Part shown: positions 3,719 through 58,558 of the stretch, in pieces
Position numbering within the stretch: the stretch's first letter is position 1
Layout of the letters: each line of letters opens with the position of its first letter
Assembly (NCBI RefSeq): GCF_016921195.1
Contig: NZ_JAFGYF010000001.1
Span: forward strand, 496,001-560,000
From: Cellulosimicrobium cellulans
Lineage (GTDB): Bacteria > Actinomycetota > Actinomycetes > Actinomycetales > Cellulomonadaceae
Direction of reading: 5' to 3'
Length of the DNA stretch: 64,000 nucleotides
Position numbers and translations under genes: made by a program
The notes under the pieces: model-generated
What the model saw: only the letters and a program-made list of their open reading frames with translations
Told to the model about the DNA's origin: nothing
Databases searched by the model: none

Positions 3719-6328
3719 TCAGCCGGCGCGGCGCAGGCGGAGCGAGTTGCCGACGACGAGCACCGAGCTCGCGGCCATCGCCGCGCCCGCGATCATCGGG
3801 TTGAGCAGGCCGGCCGCCGCGAGCGGGATCGCCGCGACGTTGTACGCGAACGCCCAGAACAGGTTCTGCTGGATCACGCGCAGCGTCCGGCGCGACAGCC
3901 GGATCGCCGTCGCGGCGCTGCGCAGGTCGCCGCGGACGAGCGTGAGGTCGCTCGCCTCGATCGCGACGTCCGTCCCGGTCCCCATCGCGAGCCCGAGGTC
4001 GGCCGTCGCGAGCGCGGCGGCGTCGTTCACGCCGTCCCCGACCATCGCGACGACGCGCCCCTCGCGCCGGAGCCGCGCGACGACGTCGACCTTCTGGTCG
4101 GGGAGCACGCGCGCGACCACGTCCGTCCCCGCGATCCCGACGGCGCGCGCCACCTCCCGGGCCGCGCCCTCGCCGTCGCCCGTGAGCAGGTAGGGCCGCA
4201 GACCGAGGTCCTTCAGCTCGGCGACCGCCTGGGCCGACGTCGGTCGCACCGGGTCGCGCAGCAGGAGCACCGCGCGCGCCCGGCCGTCCCACGCGACGAC
4301 GACGGCGCTCGCCCCCGTCGCCTCGGCGGCGGCGAACGCGTCGTCGAGCCCGGGGTCGCTCGCGACACCCTCGCGCCCGAGCCACGACGGCTGCCCGACG
4401 AGCACGCGCCGGGCGCTGAGGCCTCCGCCCTCGCCGAGCGAGAGGCCGGAGTGCGCGGTGCGGACGACGGCCTCGACACCGCCGCCCGGGACGCTGCGGA
4501 AGTCGAACGCCTGGAGCGAGCCGACCGCGACGCCGTCGGCCCCCACCGGCGCGTCCTCGTCGGTCGACGCCGGGACGGCGGCCACGTCCGGGGCGGCCGC
4601 CGCGATCGCCCGGGCGATCGGGTGCTCGCTGAGCGCCTCGACGGCACCCGCGTAGCGCAGGGCGTCGCGCGCGTCGTCGACCTCTCGGCGAGAGCTGTCA
4701 GCACCTCGCGGCGGGGCGCCCCTCTCGGCCGACAGGTCGGCGAGCGGGACGGTGCCCGACGCCGTCACGACCGCCTCGAGCGCCATCGCGCCCTGGGTGA
4801 CGGTCCCCGTCTTGTCGAGCACGACCGTGTCCACCCGCCGCGTCGACTCGAGGATCTCCGGGCCCTTGACGAGCACGCCGAGCTGCGCGCCGCGGCCCGT
4901 GCCGACGAGCAGGGCCGTCGGCGTCGCCAGACCCAGCGCGCAGGGGCACGCGATGATGAGCACCGCGACGGCGGCCGTGAACGCGAGCTGCGCGCCCGCC
5001 CCGGCGAGCAGCCAGCCGACGAGCGTCGCGACCGCGAGCGCCAGGACGACCGGCACGAACACCGCCGAGACCCGGTCCGCGAGCCGTTGCACCGGCGCCT
5101 TGCCCGTCTGCGCCTGCGTCACGAGCCGCCCGAGCTGCGCGAGCGTCGTCTCCTCGCCCACGCGCGTCGCGCGGACCAGCAGCGCGCCCGCCGCGTTGAC
5201 CGTCGCGCCCGTCACGTCGTCGCCCGGGCCGACGTCCACCGGCACCGGCTCGCCCGTGAGCAGCGACGTGTCGACCGCGCTCGCCCCCTCCAGCACCACG
5301 CCGTCCGTCGCGACCTTCTCGCCCGGCCGCACGACGAACACGTCACCCACCGCGAGGTCCGCGACCGGGACGCGCTCGGTGACCCGTGCGCCGTCGGCCC
5401 CCGTGCGCGGAGAACCGTCCGGCCCGAGCACCACGCGCTCCGCGTCCTTCGCGCCCAGCTCGAGCAGCGACCGCAGCGCGTCGCCCGCGCGGCGCTTCGA
5501 GCGGTGCTCCGCGTACCGGCCGGCGAGCAGGAACGTCGTGACGACGGCCGCGACCTCGAAGTACAGCTCGGGCGTCCCACCCGAACCAGCACCGTGGTCG
5601 CGGGACGGGACGAGCGTCGGCTGCATCCGCATCCCGAGTTCGCCCGCGCCGCCGAGCAGCAGCGCCCACAACGACCACAGCGTCGCCGCGACCACGCCGA
5701 GAGAGACGAGCGTGTCCATCGTCGACGCCCCGTGCCGTGCGGCCCGGAACGCCGCCGCGTGGAACGGCCACGCGCCCCACGTGACGACCGGCAGCGCGAG
5801 CGCCGCGACGACCCACTGCCACCCCGTGAGCTGCAGCGCCGGGACCATCGAGACCGCGACCACCGGGACCGTCAGCACCGCCGCGACCCGGAGTCGTCGT
5901 GCCAGGACGACGTCCGACGCCGTCCCGGCGGGCGCCACGGCCGCCTCGCCCTGGCCCGCCGAGGTAGAGCCCTGGTCCGCCGAGGTAGAGCCCTGGCCCG
6001 CCGAGGTAGAGCTCTGGTGGCGGGCGCCGGCGGTCGGGGGCGTCGGGGTGCGGCGGGTGGTGACCCGGGCGGTGTAACCGGCCTTCTCGACCGCGGCGAC
6101 GAGGTCGGCGTCGGTGACGTCGGACGCGAGGACGACGTGCGCGCTCTCGAGCGGGAGGTTGACGGTGGCGGTGACGCCGTCCACGCGGTTGAGCCGCTTC
6201 TCGACGCGCGCGACGCACGAGGCGCACGTCATGCCCTCGATCGCGAGGTCGACCTCGGCGAACGGTCGACCGTCGGCGTCGCCCGCCGGGAGGGCGGTCG
6301 TCGGGGTGGGCGTGGGCTGGGCGGTCAT
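3719..6328 (-). CDS. copA: Copper-exporting P1B-type ATPase
   Basis: This 869-residue membrane pump exports Cu(I) from the cytoplasm. The N-terminal HMA domain has the ligand pair GMTCASC (Cys35, Cys38). The membrane core carries the transport motif CPC ([13 protein letters not shown]). The actuator has LLTGEPVP, the phosphorylation site is DKTGT (near residue 505), the nucleotide domain has SEHPIA, and [13 protein letters not shown] marks the hinge. The last helices contain [10 protein letters not shown] and [14 protein letters not shown], typical of copper-specific P1B-1 pumps. The ATG at 6328 has GAGGAG 9 nt upstream. Between the HMA domain and the first helix (residues about 104-126) lie three in-frame copies of STSA(G/D)QG, encoded by a dispersed DNA repeat. 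It is the last gene of csoR-copZ-copA. Confidence 0.95.
5950..6012 (-). repeat. Three 21-bp GAGGTAGA repeat units embedded in copA
   Basis: Three head-to-tail 21-bp units (5950-5970, 5971-5991, 5992-6012) differ only at single C/T positions. A partial fourth follows to about 6017. Each has the core CCGAGGTAGAGCCCTGG on the plus strand. Because the unit is seven codons long, it reads through in frame as [14 protein letters not shown] and STSAGQG in a flexible linker of CopA. The same unit occurs in hemD (12988-13044) and in a large array at 56877-57078. Confidence 0.9.
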
Positions 6329-12530: not shown

Positions 12531-13543
12531 GAGGGATCTCCTTCGGGGGTCGGGTCGGCGGTGCCGGTGGTGCCGGCAGCCGGGGGGTCGGCCGGGTCGT
12601 CGGGCTCGGTGGTCGTGCGGGTGGCGGAGCCGGTGGCGGCGAGCGCGTCGGTGAGCGCGGCGGCCAGCGCGGCGTCGGTCGGGCGCTCCGCGACGGCGTC
12701 GAGCCGCAGCCCGACGTCGCGCGCGGCCCGGGCGGTCGGGTCGCCGATCGCGACGCCCACGACGTCGTCGCGCGGGCCGAGCTGGCGTGCCACCTCGCGC
12801 ACGACGCTCCCCGAGGTGAGCACGACGGCGTCCACCTCGCCCGCGCGCCAGGCCGCGACGACGTCCGGCGCGAGCGTGTGCGTGACGGTGCGGTAGACGG
12901 TGACGACGTGCGGGACGTACCCGAGGTCGTGCAGGCCGTCGTGCATCGTCGGTGCGGCGAGGTCCCCCTGCGGCAGCAGGACCACGCCTCTACCTCGCGA
13001 GGTAGAGCCCTGGCCTGCCGAGGTAGAGCCCTGGTCTGCTGAGGGGAGGGCAGCGAACGCGGCGACGAGGCCGCGGGCCGAGTTCTCGTCGGGCTCGAGC
13101 TCGACGGTGATGCCGACCGCCTCCAGGGCGCGGCGGGTCGCGGGCCCGACGGCGGCCCAGCGGGCCCGGCGCGCGGCGTCGGCGAGGCCGACGCCCTGGC
13201 GGACGGCGCTCGCGAGGAGCTCCTCGATCGCGTTGACGCTCGTGACGACGACCCAGGCGAAGTCGCCGTGGACCAGGCGGGCGAGGGCGCCGTCGACGGG
13301 CGCGGTGTCCTCGACCGGGGCGCGCTCGATCGCCGGGCTGACGAGGACGCGTGCGCCCGCGTCGCGGAGCGTCGCCGCAAGGTCCCCGGCGCGCTCGGGC
13401 GCGCGCGGGACCAGGACTGTCCGACCGGCGAGCGCGTCGGTCCGGCGGGCTGCGCCCGTGGCGTCGGCGGTGCCGCGCGCCGGGAGCGGCGGCACCACGG
13501 GCGCGGGCCCGCGCGACGGGTCGCGCAGCGGTCCGGGGCTCAT
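12527..13543 (-). CDS. hemD: Uroporphyrinogen-III synthase
   Basis: This 338-residue enzyme closes hydroxymethylbilane into uroporphyrinogen III. It has the two-lobed HemD fold: the first lobe runs from about residue 40 ([15 protein letters not shown], then [13 protein letters not shown]) and the second includes [16 protein letters not shown]. The start at 13543 overlaps the hemC stop by 4 bases, which rules out the longer open frame upstream. Residues about 166-186 consist of [15 protein letters not shown], encoded by the same dispersed 21-bp repeat found in copA. The last 40 residues are Thr/Pro/Asp-rich and look disordered. Both ends overlap neighbours in hemC-hemD-hemB-hemL. Confidence 0.92.
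12988..13044 (-). repeat. 21-bp GAGGTAGA repeats embedded in hemD
   Basis: The stretch opens with a perfect 20-bp palindrome, CTCTACCTCGCGAGGTAGAG (12988-13007), formed by one inverted and one direct unit. Two further direct units with the core GAGGTAGAGCCCTGG follow at 21-bp spacing, and a decayed end is at 13038-13044. Read in the hemD frame it encodes STSAGQG-like heptapeptides between the two lobes of the enzyme. It belongs to the same family as 5950-6012 and 56877-57078. Confidence 0.88.
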
Positions 13544-56055: not shown

Positions 56056-56888
56056 GCGCGGAGATCGTGGCCTCTCCCTCGGGAGCGTCGTCGGACTCAT
56101 CGTCGGGGGACGTGGGCCGCACGACGCCCGCGTCCGTGCTCATCGGGTGCTCCCACGGCACGAGCGACCTCGCCGGCCGTGACGTGATCCGCGCACTGCT
56201 CGACGACGTCCGCGCCGCACGGCCCGACCTCGACGTGCGCGAGGCGTTCGTCGACGTGCAGCAGCCCGAGGTCGCGGACGTCGTGACGTCGGTCGTCGCT
56301 CCTGCGGCGACGGAGGACCCGGACGGTTCCGCGCCGGACGCCGGGGAACCCGGGGACGCGGTCGTCGTGCCGCTGCTGCTCTCCGGCGGGTTCCACGTGA
56401 GCGTCGACGTCGCGGCGGCGGTCGAGGACCGCGGTCCCGGCACCGGTCGCGCCGCCGCGTCCACCCCCCTCGGGCCGGACCCTCGCCTCGTGGACCTGCT
56501 CGCCGAGCGGCTCGCCGACGTCGGCCTGCGCCCGGAGGACGCCGTCGTGGTCGCCGCCGCCGGCTCGAGCCGCCCGGGAGCCGCCCGCGACGTCGAGGAG
56601 CTCGCCGCGGGCCTGCGCGAGCGCGTGCCCGGCCCGGTGACGGTCGGCTACGGCGCCATGGCCGAGCCCTCCGTGCCCGACGCCGTCGCCGCCGCCCGCG
56701 CCGACCTCGCCCCGGGCGGGCGCGTCGTCGTCGCGGCCTACCTCCTCGCGCCGGGGTTCTTCTACGACCGCGTCCTCGAGGCCGGCGGCGACGTCGTCAC
56801 CGCCCCGCTCGCCCCCGACGCCCGCCTCACCGCGATCGTCCTCGACCGCTACGCCACCGCCGCGGCCACCCTCGCTCAGCCGAGGTAG
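56052..56888 (+). CDS. Sirohydrochlorin ferrochelatase (CbiX/SirB family)
   Basis: This 278-residue chelatase should insert iron into sirohydrochlorin to give siroheme for NirB. It has the N-terminal metal site SVLIGCSHGTSDLAG, where the His is catalytic, and a second copy of the fold from VVVAAAGSSRPGAARDVEELA. GGRVVVAAYLLAPGFFYDRVLEAGG closes the protein. The double-domain form is typical of actinobacteria. The last codons and the TAG stop fall inside the 21-bp repeat array, so the C-terminus (AQPR) appears to have been rewritten by the repeat. Confidence 0.88.
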   Translation: MSAEIVASPSGASSDSSSGDVGRTTPASVLIGCSHGTSDLAGRDVIRALLDDVRAARPDLDVREAFVDVQQPEVADVVTSVVAPAATEDPDGSAPDAGEPGDAVVVPLLLSGGFHVSVDVAAAVEDRGPGTGRAAASTPLGPDPRLVDLLAERLADVGLRPEDAVVVAAAGSSRPGAARDVEELAAGLRERVPGPVTVGYGAMAEPSVPDAVAAARADLAPGGRVVVAAYLLAPGFFYDRVLEAGGDVVTAPLAPDARLTAIVLDRYATAAATLAQPR

Positions 56889-57078
56889 TACCGAGGTCGG
56901 CCGAGGGAGAACCCCTGGTCTCGCGAGATGGAACCGCGGCCCCGCGAAGGAGAACCGTGGTCTCGCGAGGTAGAACCGCGGTTCTATCTCGCGGGACCGC
57001 GGTTCTCCTTCGACCGACCACGGTTCTACCTCGGCCGACACGGGTTCCTTCTCACGCGACCGGGGCTCTACCTCGTGA
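56877..57078. repeat. Inverted array of 21-bp GAGGTAGA units between convergent genes
   Basis: About five direct and five inverted 21-bp units meet at TAGAACCGCGGTTCTA (56971-56986). The central arms (56945-56978 and 56979-57012) pair over 34 bp with only three G-U pairs and no loop; pairing continues outward with mismatches. Unit core: CGAGGTAGAACCG. The left edge provides the TAG stop of cbiX (56886-56888) and the right edge the TAG stop of the MFS gene (57070-57068). The structure can terminate both genes. Related units sit inside copA and hemD. Confidence 0.92.
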
Positions 57079-58558
57079 GGGTCGGACGGGTGCGGGGGGC
57101 CAGGAGGGCGACGCCCGCCGCGAGCAGCACCGTGACGCCGAAGCAGACGACGTACGACGCGAGGCCGAGCGTCGGGTGCAGGGCCCACAGGAGCGAGCCT
57201 GTGACGGCGAGCGCGGTCGCGGCGGCGACGGCGTCGGACACCTGGAGCGCCGACGAGTTGGCGCCCTGCTCGGCGACGGGCGAGAGCTCGAGCGTCAGCA
57301 CCGACAGCGTCGGGTGGGTCATGCCCATGCCGAGCCCCGCGAGGGTCCACGCGACCATGCCGACGACGGGCGGGACGGCGGTCCACGCGAGCAGCGCCGC
57401 GCCGCCGATGCCGAGCGCGACGAGCGTCCCGCCGAGGCGCACGTACCCGGCGTGCTGGAGCCCCCAGGTCGCGCGACCGCGCAGCCAGGACCCCGTCGAC
57501 CAGCCGACGGCGCCGAACGTCAGCACGGCGCCCGCGAGCGACGGCGCAAGGCCCCGCTCGTGCGAGAGCAGGAGCGGGAGCAGCACCTCGGCGCCGGTGA
57601 AGGCGGCGGCGACGAGGCCGCGGATCGCGATGACGCTCGGCAAGCCACGCGCGGCACGGGTCGTGCCGGGAGGCAGGAGTCGCGGGACGGCGAGCGCGAC
57701 GGCCGCGAGCGCGGCGACGAGCAGCAGCACGAGCCCGGTGCCGCGGAGCTGGCCCGCGTAGTTGAGCGCCCCGATCCCGACGGCGGCCACGACGGCCCAG
57801 GCGAGCGAGGCCTGGCGCGCGGTCCGGTCGAGGGGCGACTCGGCGTCGGCGGTCCCGTGCGGAGGGAGGTCGTCCGACGAGGACTGGAGGTCGTCGGAGA
57901 CGCGGGACGAGGCGTCCGGGGCCGAGCCGCGGGCGGCGCGCATGCCGGGCCGCATGAGGATCAGTGCCGGGACGGCGAGGACCGGGACCGCGAGGAAGAC
58001 CCACCGCCAGCCGACGTGCTCCACGACCAGCCCGGCGATGGCGGGGCCGACGATGGACGGGATCACCCACGCCGCGGCGAACGCGGCGAAGACCTTCGGC
58101 CGCCGGTCGGTGGGGAACACGCGCGCGACGAGCACGTAGAGCGCGACGATGTAGAGGCCCGTCCCGACGCCCTGGAGCACGCGGCCGGCGACGAGGACCA
58201 GCATGTCCTGCGCGAGCCCCGCCACCAGCAGGCCGGCGAGGAAGAGCCCGATGCCCGTCCACAGCGGCGTCGTCGGGCCCGCGCGGTCGCTCCAGCGGCC
58301 GGACGCGACCATGCCCACGACGCTCGACGCGAGCGACGCGGCGAACGCGAGCGTGTAGAGGGTGAGGCCGTCGAGCTCGACGGCGACGGTCGGCATGGCG
58401 GTGGCGACGGCGAGCGCCTCGAACGCGCCGAGGAACACGAACGCGACCATGCCGAACAGGACGGTGCGCTGCGTCCCGGGGGAGAGCGTGCCCGTGTGGG
58501 GCGCGTCGGGGGTGCCGTGCACCGGCGCGTCGGCGTCGGTGCGGGGGTCCGCCGTCAT
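57068..58558 (-). CDS. MFS drug-type efflux transporter
   Basis: This 496-residue transporter has 12-14 membrane helices. The MFS loop motif GRWSDRAGPTTPLW follows helix 2, and GVGTGLYIVALYVLVARVFP resembles motif C-like sequence of exporters. A polar loop (SAPDASSRVSDDLQSS) separates the halves. The ATG at 58558 overlaps the stop of the quinone oxidoreductase by 4 bases, so both are in one SoxR-controlled operon, which suggests export of redox-active compounds. The stop codon lies in the 21-bp repeat array. Confidence 0.88.
   Translation of the reverse strand: MTADPRTDADAPVHGTPDAPHTGTLSPGTQRTVLFGMVAFVFLGAFEALAVATAMPTVAVELDGLTLYTLAFAASLASSVVGMVASGRWSDRAGPTTPLWTGIGLFLAGLLVAGLAQDMLVLVAGRVLQGVGTGLYIVALYVLVARVFPTDRRPKVFAAFAAAWVIPSIVGPAIAGLVVEHVGWRWVFLAVPVLAVPALILMRPGMRAARGSAPDASSRVSDDLQSSSDDLPPHGTADAESPLDRTARQASLAWAVVAAVGIGALNYAGQLRGTGLVLLLVAALAAVALAVPRLLPPGTTRAARGLPSVIAIRGLVAAAFTGAEVLLPLLLSHERGLAPSLAGAVLTFGAVGWSTGSWLRGRATWGLQHAGYVRLGGTLVALGIGGAALLAWTAVPPVVGMVAWTLAGLGMGMTHPTLSVLTLELSPVAEQGANSSALQVSDAVAAATALAVTGSLLWALHPTLGLASYVVCFGVTVLLAAGVALLAPRTRPTLTR

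Follow-up and report, generated by a model that had tools for sequence, protein, structure and literature searches.

A 21-bp palindromic repeat family at convergent gene ends and in protein linkers of Cellulosimicrobium

In a 64,000-nucleotide stretch of the Cellulosimicrobium cellulans genome (the window), the converging genes cbiX and an MFS transporter gene meet at an array of 21-bp units laid out as an inverted repeat, and both genes end inside it. What such an array is, and how it came to stand at the ends of two genes, is the question raised by this locus. The initial annotation, made from the sequence alone, proposed a dispersed, possibly mobile palindromic element that had overwritten both gene ends and also enters copA and hemD in frame. 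Here we compare the source genome (G000; 4.58 Mb in 23 contigs) with related genomes, which are given other G numbers.

The array between cbiX and the MFS gene

The inverted array at 56881-57075 consists of nine good 21-bp units found by pattern match and a degenerate tenth recognized by eye, in agreement with the initial count of about ten (Table 1). By eye, the degenerate unit, near 57043 in the reverse arm, differs at 4 of 12 core positions. The core CGAGGTAGAACCG, with up to two mismatches, occurs 18 times in the window against 1.99 expected, and none of 100 shuffles reached 18. Nine of these 18 matches belong to the cbiX-MFS array, five forward and four reverse. The repeat does supply both stop codons, as had been claimed: the TAG of cbiX (56886-56888) lies within the first, outermost forward unit, and that of the MFS gene (57068-57070) within the outermost reverse unit.

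Table 1. Repeat arrays and neighboring genes in the window.
Feature	Position	Strand	Description
copA array	5948..6017	+	3 units antisense to the gene, between HMA and E1-E2 ATPase matches
hemD array	12985..13044	+	2 forward units (antisense), preceded head to head by 1 reverse (sense) unit
cbiX	56112..56888	+	Start by our own gene caller; longest ORF from 56052; Pfam CbiX
Forward arm	56881..56978	+	5 units, starting at 56881, 56902, 56924, 56945 and 56966
Reverse arm	56979..57075	-	Units at 56979, 57000, 57021 and 57063, and a degenerate one near 57043
Whole inverted array	56881..57078	.	Predicted single hairpin
MFS transporter gene	57068..58558	-	Start by our own gene caller; longest ORF to 58738; Pfam MFS_1

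Folded as RNA, positions 56870-57090 gave -140.4 kcal/mol (z -9.14). A simple terminator scan of 56600-57300 returned four matches, compared with 0.1 in shuffles; three of them overlap at 56955-57002 on the plus strand inside the array, with the tail TTCTCCTT, and the fourth is at 56744 inside cbiX. There is no U-tract after the whole cbiX-MFS hairpin. Searches of the window array and repeat family against Rfam yielded only matches below the gathering score, nearly all of them to miRNA hairpin models.

The site takes several forms across the genus. In G002 and G010, which a four-gene tree places closest to G000, there is no array, and cbiX and the MFS gene have an 11-nt overlap. A single hairpin is present in G006 and G013 (gap 24-25), and arrays in G000, G005, G011 and G016 (gap 139-179). 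Six forward units are present in G004 (gap 713), four forward units and one reverse in G012, and forward units, a core of a second repeat termed B (see below) and reverse units in G015 (gap 257). A short hairpin-like form with TAG stands at the site in G003 and G014. No unit was found there in G007, G008 or G009, and since this is also the case for G002 and G010, the array at this site is not essential. In this comparison no MFS end was obtained for G007, G009, G012 and G014 and no CbiX end for G018, and G001 gave no cbiX match.

The proposal that the repeat overwrote both gene ends is not upheld by these relatives. The C-terminal tails of CbiX and the MFS protein are of equal length in G000 and in the array-free G002 and G010, evidence against an overwritten MFS end. 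All three genomes end the MFS gene with TAG, and only the cbiX stop differs (TGA in G002 and G010, TAG in G000). The array has inverted ends, and no target duplication was recognized by eye when it was set against G002 and G010, a comparison of a single empty site with diverged flanks. Either the array would have inserted between overlapping genes, taking over only the cbiX stop, or G002 and G010 would have lost it, and their MFS TAG might then be a relic of it.

Distribution, placement and arm structure of the unit

The unit is found far beyond the window, so the refuting case named by the initial annotation, a unit with no further copies in the genome, does not apply. With up to one mismatch, CGAGGTAGAACC occurs 499 times in G000 compared with 15 for a reversed control, and 57 to 484 times in each of the other 16 genomes of the genus. 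G026, from another genus, has 183 copies, and most other relatives have tens, at or slightly over the control. A tandem pattern of two units 21 bp apart, with up to three mismatches, gave 328 matches in G000 and none in the control. This pattern is present in 16 of 59 genomes (G000 included), namely 15 of the 17 of the genus and, once, G026. The positive genomes of the genus have 7 to 328 matches each, with sister species varying widely (328 in G000, 94 in G002, 27 in G010), and G003 and G014 have none; genome completeness is only 75% for G001 and 83% for G014. When 396 genomes were drawn evenly from the order, the tandem unit turned up in G000 only, the 395 other sampled genomes being free of it. 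Among named genomes, the exact tandem pattern was found in 16 stretches, 14 from Cellulosimicrobium, one from Promicromonospora iranensis and one from a MAG labelled Bacteroidales, in a scan that may have left out records near the window's own.

Unit spacing is mostly 21 bp, with 20-bp spacing at one locus (L049) and 22-bp spacing in the window, and the 12-bp core is better conserved than most of the unit linker. Among the matches listed, unit variants look species-biased by eye, GAGGTAGAGCC being common in G005 and GAGGTAGTACC in G007. The matches listed for G008, G014 and G003 also include a recurrent form of about 48-49 bp, composed of a unit, a second unit and a reverse unit with a short-stem hairpin end, which may be a separate subfamily.

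Placement was assessed in 864 kb of G000 (the window and 40 stretches of 20 kb), with genes from our own codon-usage caller, whose calls were unchecked against an annotation. This sample contains 23 array clusters, compared with a mean of 0.07 for 30 shuffled patterns and 0 for the reversed pattern. Thirteen clusters lie in convergent gaps, two in tandem gaps, two in one divergent gap, five in genes and one at an edge. Counted by gap, arrays occur in 10 of 123 convergent, 2 of 495 tandem and 1 of 121 divergent gaps (convergent against all others, one-sided Fisher p 2e-6). Forward units are to the left of reverse units in all nine convergent gaps that hold both orientations; the tenth array-bearing convergent gap has forward units only. 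The TAG of the unit is the stop codon at 7 of 20 convergent and 1 of 2 tandem gene ends (8 ends in G000), and TAG makes up 18% of stops at convergent ends versus 9% at tandem ends. Arrays in one direction exist, for example at L071:2224 in G000 and at cbiX in G004, and there the large hairpin therefore cannot form. Samples from G008 (466 kb; six clusters, with three convergent, one tandem, and two in the genes copA and hemD) and G026 (400 kb; three clusters, one convergent and two tandem) hold too few clusters to show a convergent bias on their own.

A composite element in G005 (C15, ~77690-78178) and a short array in G008 (C1, ~808168-808228) stand where G000, G002, G006 and G011 have 1.4-3.2 kb of other sequence, called as small genes in the window by our own caller. 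This site suggests that deletion or replacement may occur at arrays.

In G026 the motif is present as single hairpins with a stem of the CGAGGTAGAACC...GGTTCTACCTCG type. Eleven hairpins of 38-39 nt, drawn from 12 distinct ones among the matches listed, of 20 places, have 97.8% of pair cells paired and 16 double-changed cells, a covariation matched by none of 500 shuffles; it is evidence for the inner pairs, because the search pattern fixed the outer eight. When 32 inverted arrays from G000, its relatives and G026, some of them orthologous, were pooled, facing units were more alike than in shuffled order (15.66 vs. 15.25 of 21, p 0.001), and arms of the same locus were more alike than arms of different loci (15.15 vs. 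13.36). The effect of arm symmetry is small. Taken with the single hairpins of G026, the likeness of facing units suggests that the arrays most likely grew by duplication of a hairpin arm, with both arms kept matched.

Copies inside genes and the B core

Five arrays of the G000 sample are located inside genes, namely those for CopA, HemD, GcvP, an EamA transporter and a protein that we take to be molybdenum-hydroxylase-like, the first four of which are confirmed by Pfam. The in-frame units that the initial annotation reported in copA and hemD are among them (Table 1). Relative to the best Pfam stretches, the CopA copy is between two domains, the GcvP copy just past the first and the EamA copy past the first, and the HemD array falls within the HEM4 match. 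All units are antisense to their gene, the sole exception being the sense unit that heads the HemD array. In antisense orientation the unit consensus is stop-free in all frames, and all five arrays share one antisense frame, encoding heptapeptides of the form S(T/P)S-x-x-Q-G (STSxDQG-type).

Comparison of orthologues, which had been suggested as a check, showed that these heptapeptides are variable or missing in HemD of sister species. Judged by eye across 17 genomes, the HemD linker carries from none to four STSxDQG units: none in G003, G009 and G012, for example, about two in G000, G002 and G005, four in G011 and G016, and three in others. Copy number in HemD differs between species by whole heptapeptides. 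In G002, CopA has a different linker and, under the cluster criterion, carries no array. It had also been considered that distant genera might carry the same heptapeptides on different DNA; this is answered in part, in that the tandem DNA unit is absent from the 395 genomes of the order and the single HemD inspected from another genus (G018) is without the heptapeptide.

Several arrays enclose the second repeat, B, which has a core of some 110-140 bp with conserved blocks GTGGCGGGYCTGGCGGGAG, GAGGAACGAG and GGATGGTAG within a freely varying, covarying stem. By exact pattern B is absent from the window; examples elsewhere are at L053:1600-1790 (G000:C17), L021, L022 and L050. The exact pattern occurs 39 times in G000 and in 16 of the 17 genomes of the genus (none in G007; control 0). 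Outside the genus there are nine matches in G025 and one each in G026 and G054, and none in the other 39 relatives. The G054 match (L278), in another family of the order, is a single B-like element far outside the genus, and may point to an older structured element. B gave no match in Rfam 15 or in the plasmids and phages searched. By our own count, a B copy is within 70 bp of at least 16 contig ends, spread over 13 of the 23 G000 contigs, and because of this clustering we conclude that the assembly tends to break at B hairpins.

With one coding B copy as the query, blastn returned 11-43 matches in each of the 17 genomes, the high counts possibly being minimum values. The 43 copies gathered comprise 24 intergenic copies and 11 sense and 8 antisense copies in called genes, a sample weighted toward coding copies by the use of a coding query. 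Complementarity at the 20 outer pairs is 88% in 14 distinct intergenic copies, compared with 66% for swapped partners (maximum 76%), and the inner stem reaches 89% compared with 58% (maximum 74%). In 13 in-gene copies only the inner stem is supported (95% vs. 73%, maximum 88.5%), because the outer stem is hardly above swapped partners (50% vs. 44%, maximum of 500 swaps 50.4%). Host genes of B in relatives, identified by Pfam, encode a CopA-type ATPase, a DUF3418 helicase-like protein, UvrD, MMPL and SDR proteins. One DUF3418 (helicase-type) gene in G003 (L306) contains B twice, once in sense and once in antisense orientation. Between the HemD linker of G014 and the CopA insert of G006, blastn gives an 83% match over query positions 16-143, including a stretch of ~57 nt with two differences by eye.

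We tentatively raise the possibility that arms and B are one mobile structured element of a new kind, organized as forward units, B hairpin and reverse units. Such an element would move as a hairpin through a host or other enzyme and land behind stop codons and also, throughout the genus, in frame in linkers of CopA, HemD, DUF3418 and UvrD helicases, MMPL and SDR proteins. Arrays lacking B, such as that of the window, would then be remnants or minimal forms.

Competing explanations and comparison with known systems

We read this dispersed family, with its bias to 3' ends and convergent gaps, its similar arms, its change in copy number between species and its in-frame copies, as probably a set of genus-wide palindromic gene-end elements that serve mainly as bidirectional terminators or 3'-end stabilizers, with arms grown by duplication and copies that spread. 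The basic form would be one hairpin, with the stem CGAGGTAGAACC...GGTTCTACCTCG, after a stop codon, the stem TAG itself acting as the stop in a fair share of cases. In gaps between convergent genes both transcripts would carry the identical hairpin, which would most likely act on each as a transcription terminator and 3'-end stabilizer. In lineages like G000 the arms would have been lengthened by tandem duplication of the 21-bp arm unit; either selection acting on the hairpin or the copying of one arm onto the other would have kept them alike. Copies would have spread by some process to further gene ends and into protein linkers, entering the latter in the orientation that is stop-free in every frame and in the frame reading STSxDQG.

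The terminator or stabilizer role is the best supported because the elements are positioned right behind stop codons, are biased to convergent genes and form the same hairpin on either strand. Spread to new sites is indicated by the copy number and the in-frame copies. The putative stages at cbiX-MFS (empty, single hairpin, array) would also count for this explanation. In-gene copies have no terminator role and count against the terminator reading, and the several-fold copy difference among sister species fits selfish spread equally well.

That selfish spread, as a mobile palindrome (REPIN-, MITE- or RPE-like) moved by some transposase or recombinase, with no host function and with gene ends and linkers as tolerated landing sites, is a doubtful explanation of the whole, though it draws on several observations: the copy numbers of sister species, the species-biased look of unit variants among the matches listed, the G005 and G008 elements where four other species have other sequence, the unrelated genes with in-frame copies, and the composite elements with their conserved core B. 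The higher share of convergent than divergent gaps with arrays in G000 and the covarying hairpins suggest, against it, a constraint on the hairpin, and no target duplication was visible at cbiX-MFS. A mobilizing RAYT is also missing, as a profile search for Y1_Tnp (RAYT) found none in the 17 genomes of the genus; among all 59 genomes searched two were positive, both from other families, as were 5 of 14 control genomes. A resident RAYT is thereby ruled out as the mobilizer. Of the initial description as a dispersed, possibly mobile palindrome, dispersal holds, and mobility gains no support from the RAYT search or from the cbiX-MFS flanks.

The units are unlikely to be protein-binding or chromosome-organizing sites, in which 21 bp, as two helical turns, would place one protein on one DNA face: the 21-bp period of most arrays and the conservation of the 12-bp core agree with this, but the 20-bp and 22-bp spacings do not, and neither covariation of single hairpins nor inverted symmetry would be required. 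A DNA-uptake-type signal recruited for use in terminators, as seen in Neisseria and Pasteurellaceae, is very unlikely, since the conserved 12-mer, inverted pairs, gene-end position and genus-specific form that recall one come with some 500 copies, many in tandem, whereas known signals generally number at least 1000 according to the cited sections of PMC1852404. Plain replication slippage of chance sequences without dispersal is highly improbable: it likely remains the mode of array growth, consistent with whole-unit copy changes in HemD and at cbiX, but as a full explanation it is ruled out by the same unit at hundreds of unrelated places and, in one frame, in five unrelated genes.

Among known systems, GTAG/CGTC-tagged REPs are described in the cited sections of Di Nocera (2013; PMC3733652) as high-copy short palindromes near the 3' ends of convergent or unidirectional genes. 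There, GTAG REPs often form opposite-orientation dimers, their GTAG termini often supply a TAG stop, and some copies occur within genes, many of which function in DNA synthesis and repair; the term Actinobacteria is absent from that paper's main text. The 21-bp family likewise is high-copy, palindromic and mostly extragenic at 3' ends, provides TAG stops and has in-gene copies. Unlike the unpaired tag of GTAG REPs, its GTAG pairs with CTAC in the stem in 11 of 11 G026 hairpins, where the search pattern required both, and the window fold pairs it too. The family further differs in having tandem 21-bp arms and the B core, and in lacking Y1_Tnp in the 17 genomes of the genus. The family works like a REP or RPE yet fails two defining features of GTAG REPs.

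We found no description of this family by title or abstract start, which does not prove that none exists. The family adds a large genus-specific set of gene-end palindromes from an actinobacterial genus whose 17 genomes gave no RAYT; the empty site, single hairpin, array and array with core are visible together at one site in relatives. Two questions thereby become testable: how REP-like elements originate and spread where no RAYT is resident, and whether GC-rich bacteria make bidirectional terminators out of repeats.

Uptake signals of Neisseria and Pasteurellaceae combine a conserved short motif with close complementary pairs that act as terminator hairpins, in the sections cited (PMC1852404). 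The 21-bp family shares the short motif in inverted hairpin pairs, and differs in its tandem arms, its lower copy number and in having no known uptake role. Inverted short repeats that flank other repeats and stop-bearing repeats at gene junctions are known from the NIME arrays of Neisseria (dRS3/RS) and mycobacterial MIRU, and the 21-bp family has such habits in common with them, a likeness by description only.

Rickettsia palindromic elements (RPEs) are about 150 bp long and occur in frame in unrelated proteins, in the cited parts of PMC10969869 and PMC3733652. The likeness in concept drawn by the initial annotation is sound: the 21-bp family is palindromic, is in frame in five unrelated genes of G000, and varies among orthologues, being missing from some HemD proteins. 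Compared by description, its unit is far shorter than an RPE and usually lies outside genes, at 3' ends; in size the B core comes closer to an RPE. Both the in-frame heptapeptides and the B core illustrate the route from such DNA to protein linker. If arms and B do form one element, RPEs would have a counterpart in actinobacteria, one whose structured core matches no Rfam 15 family.
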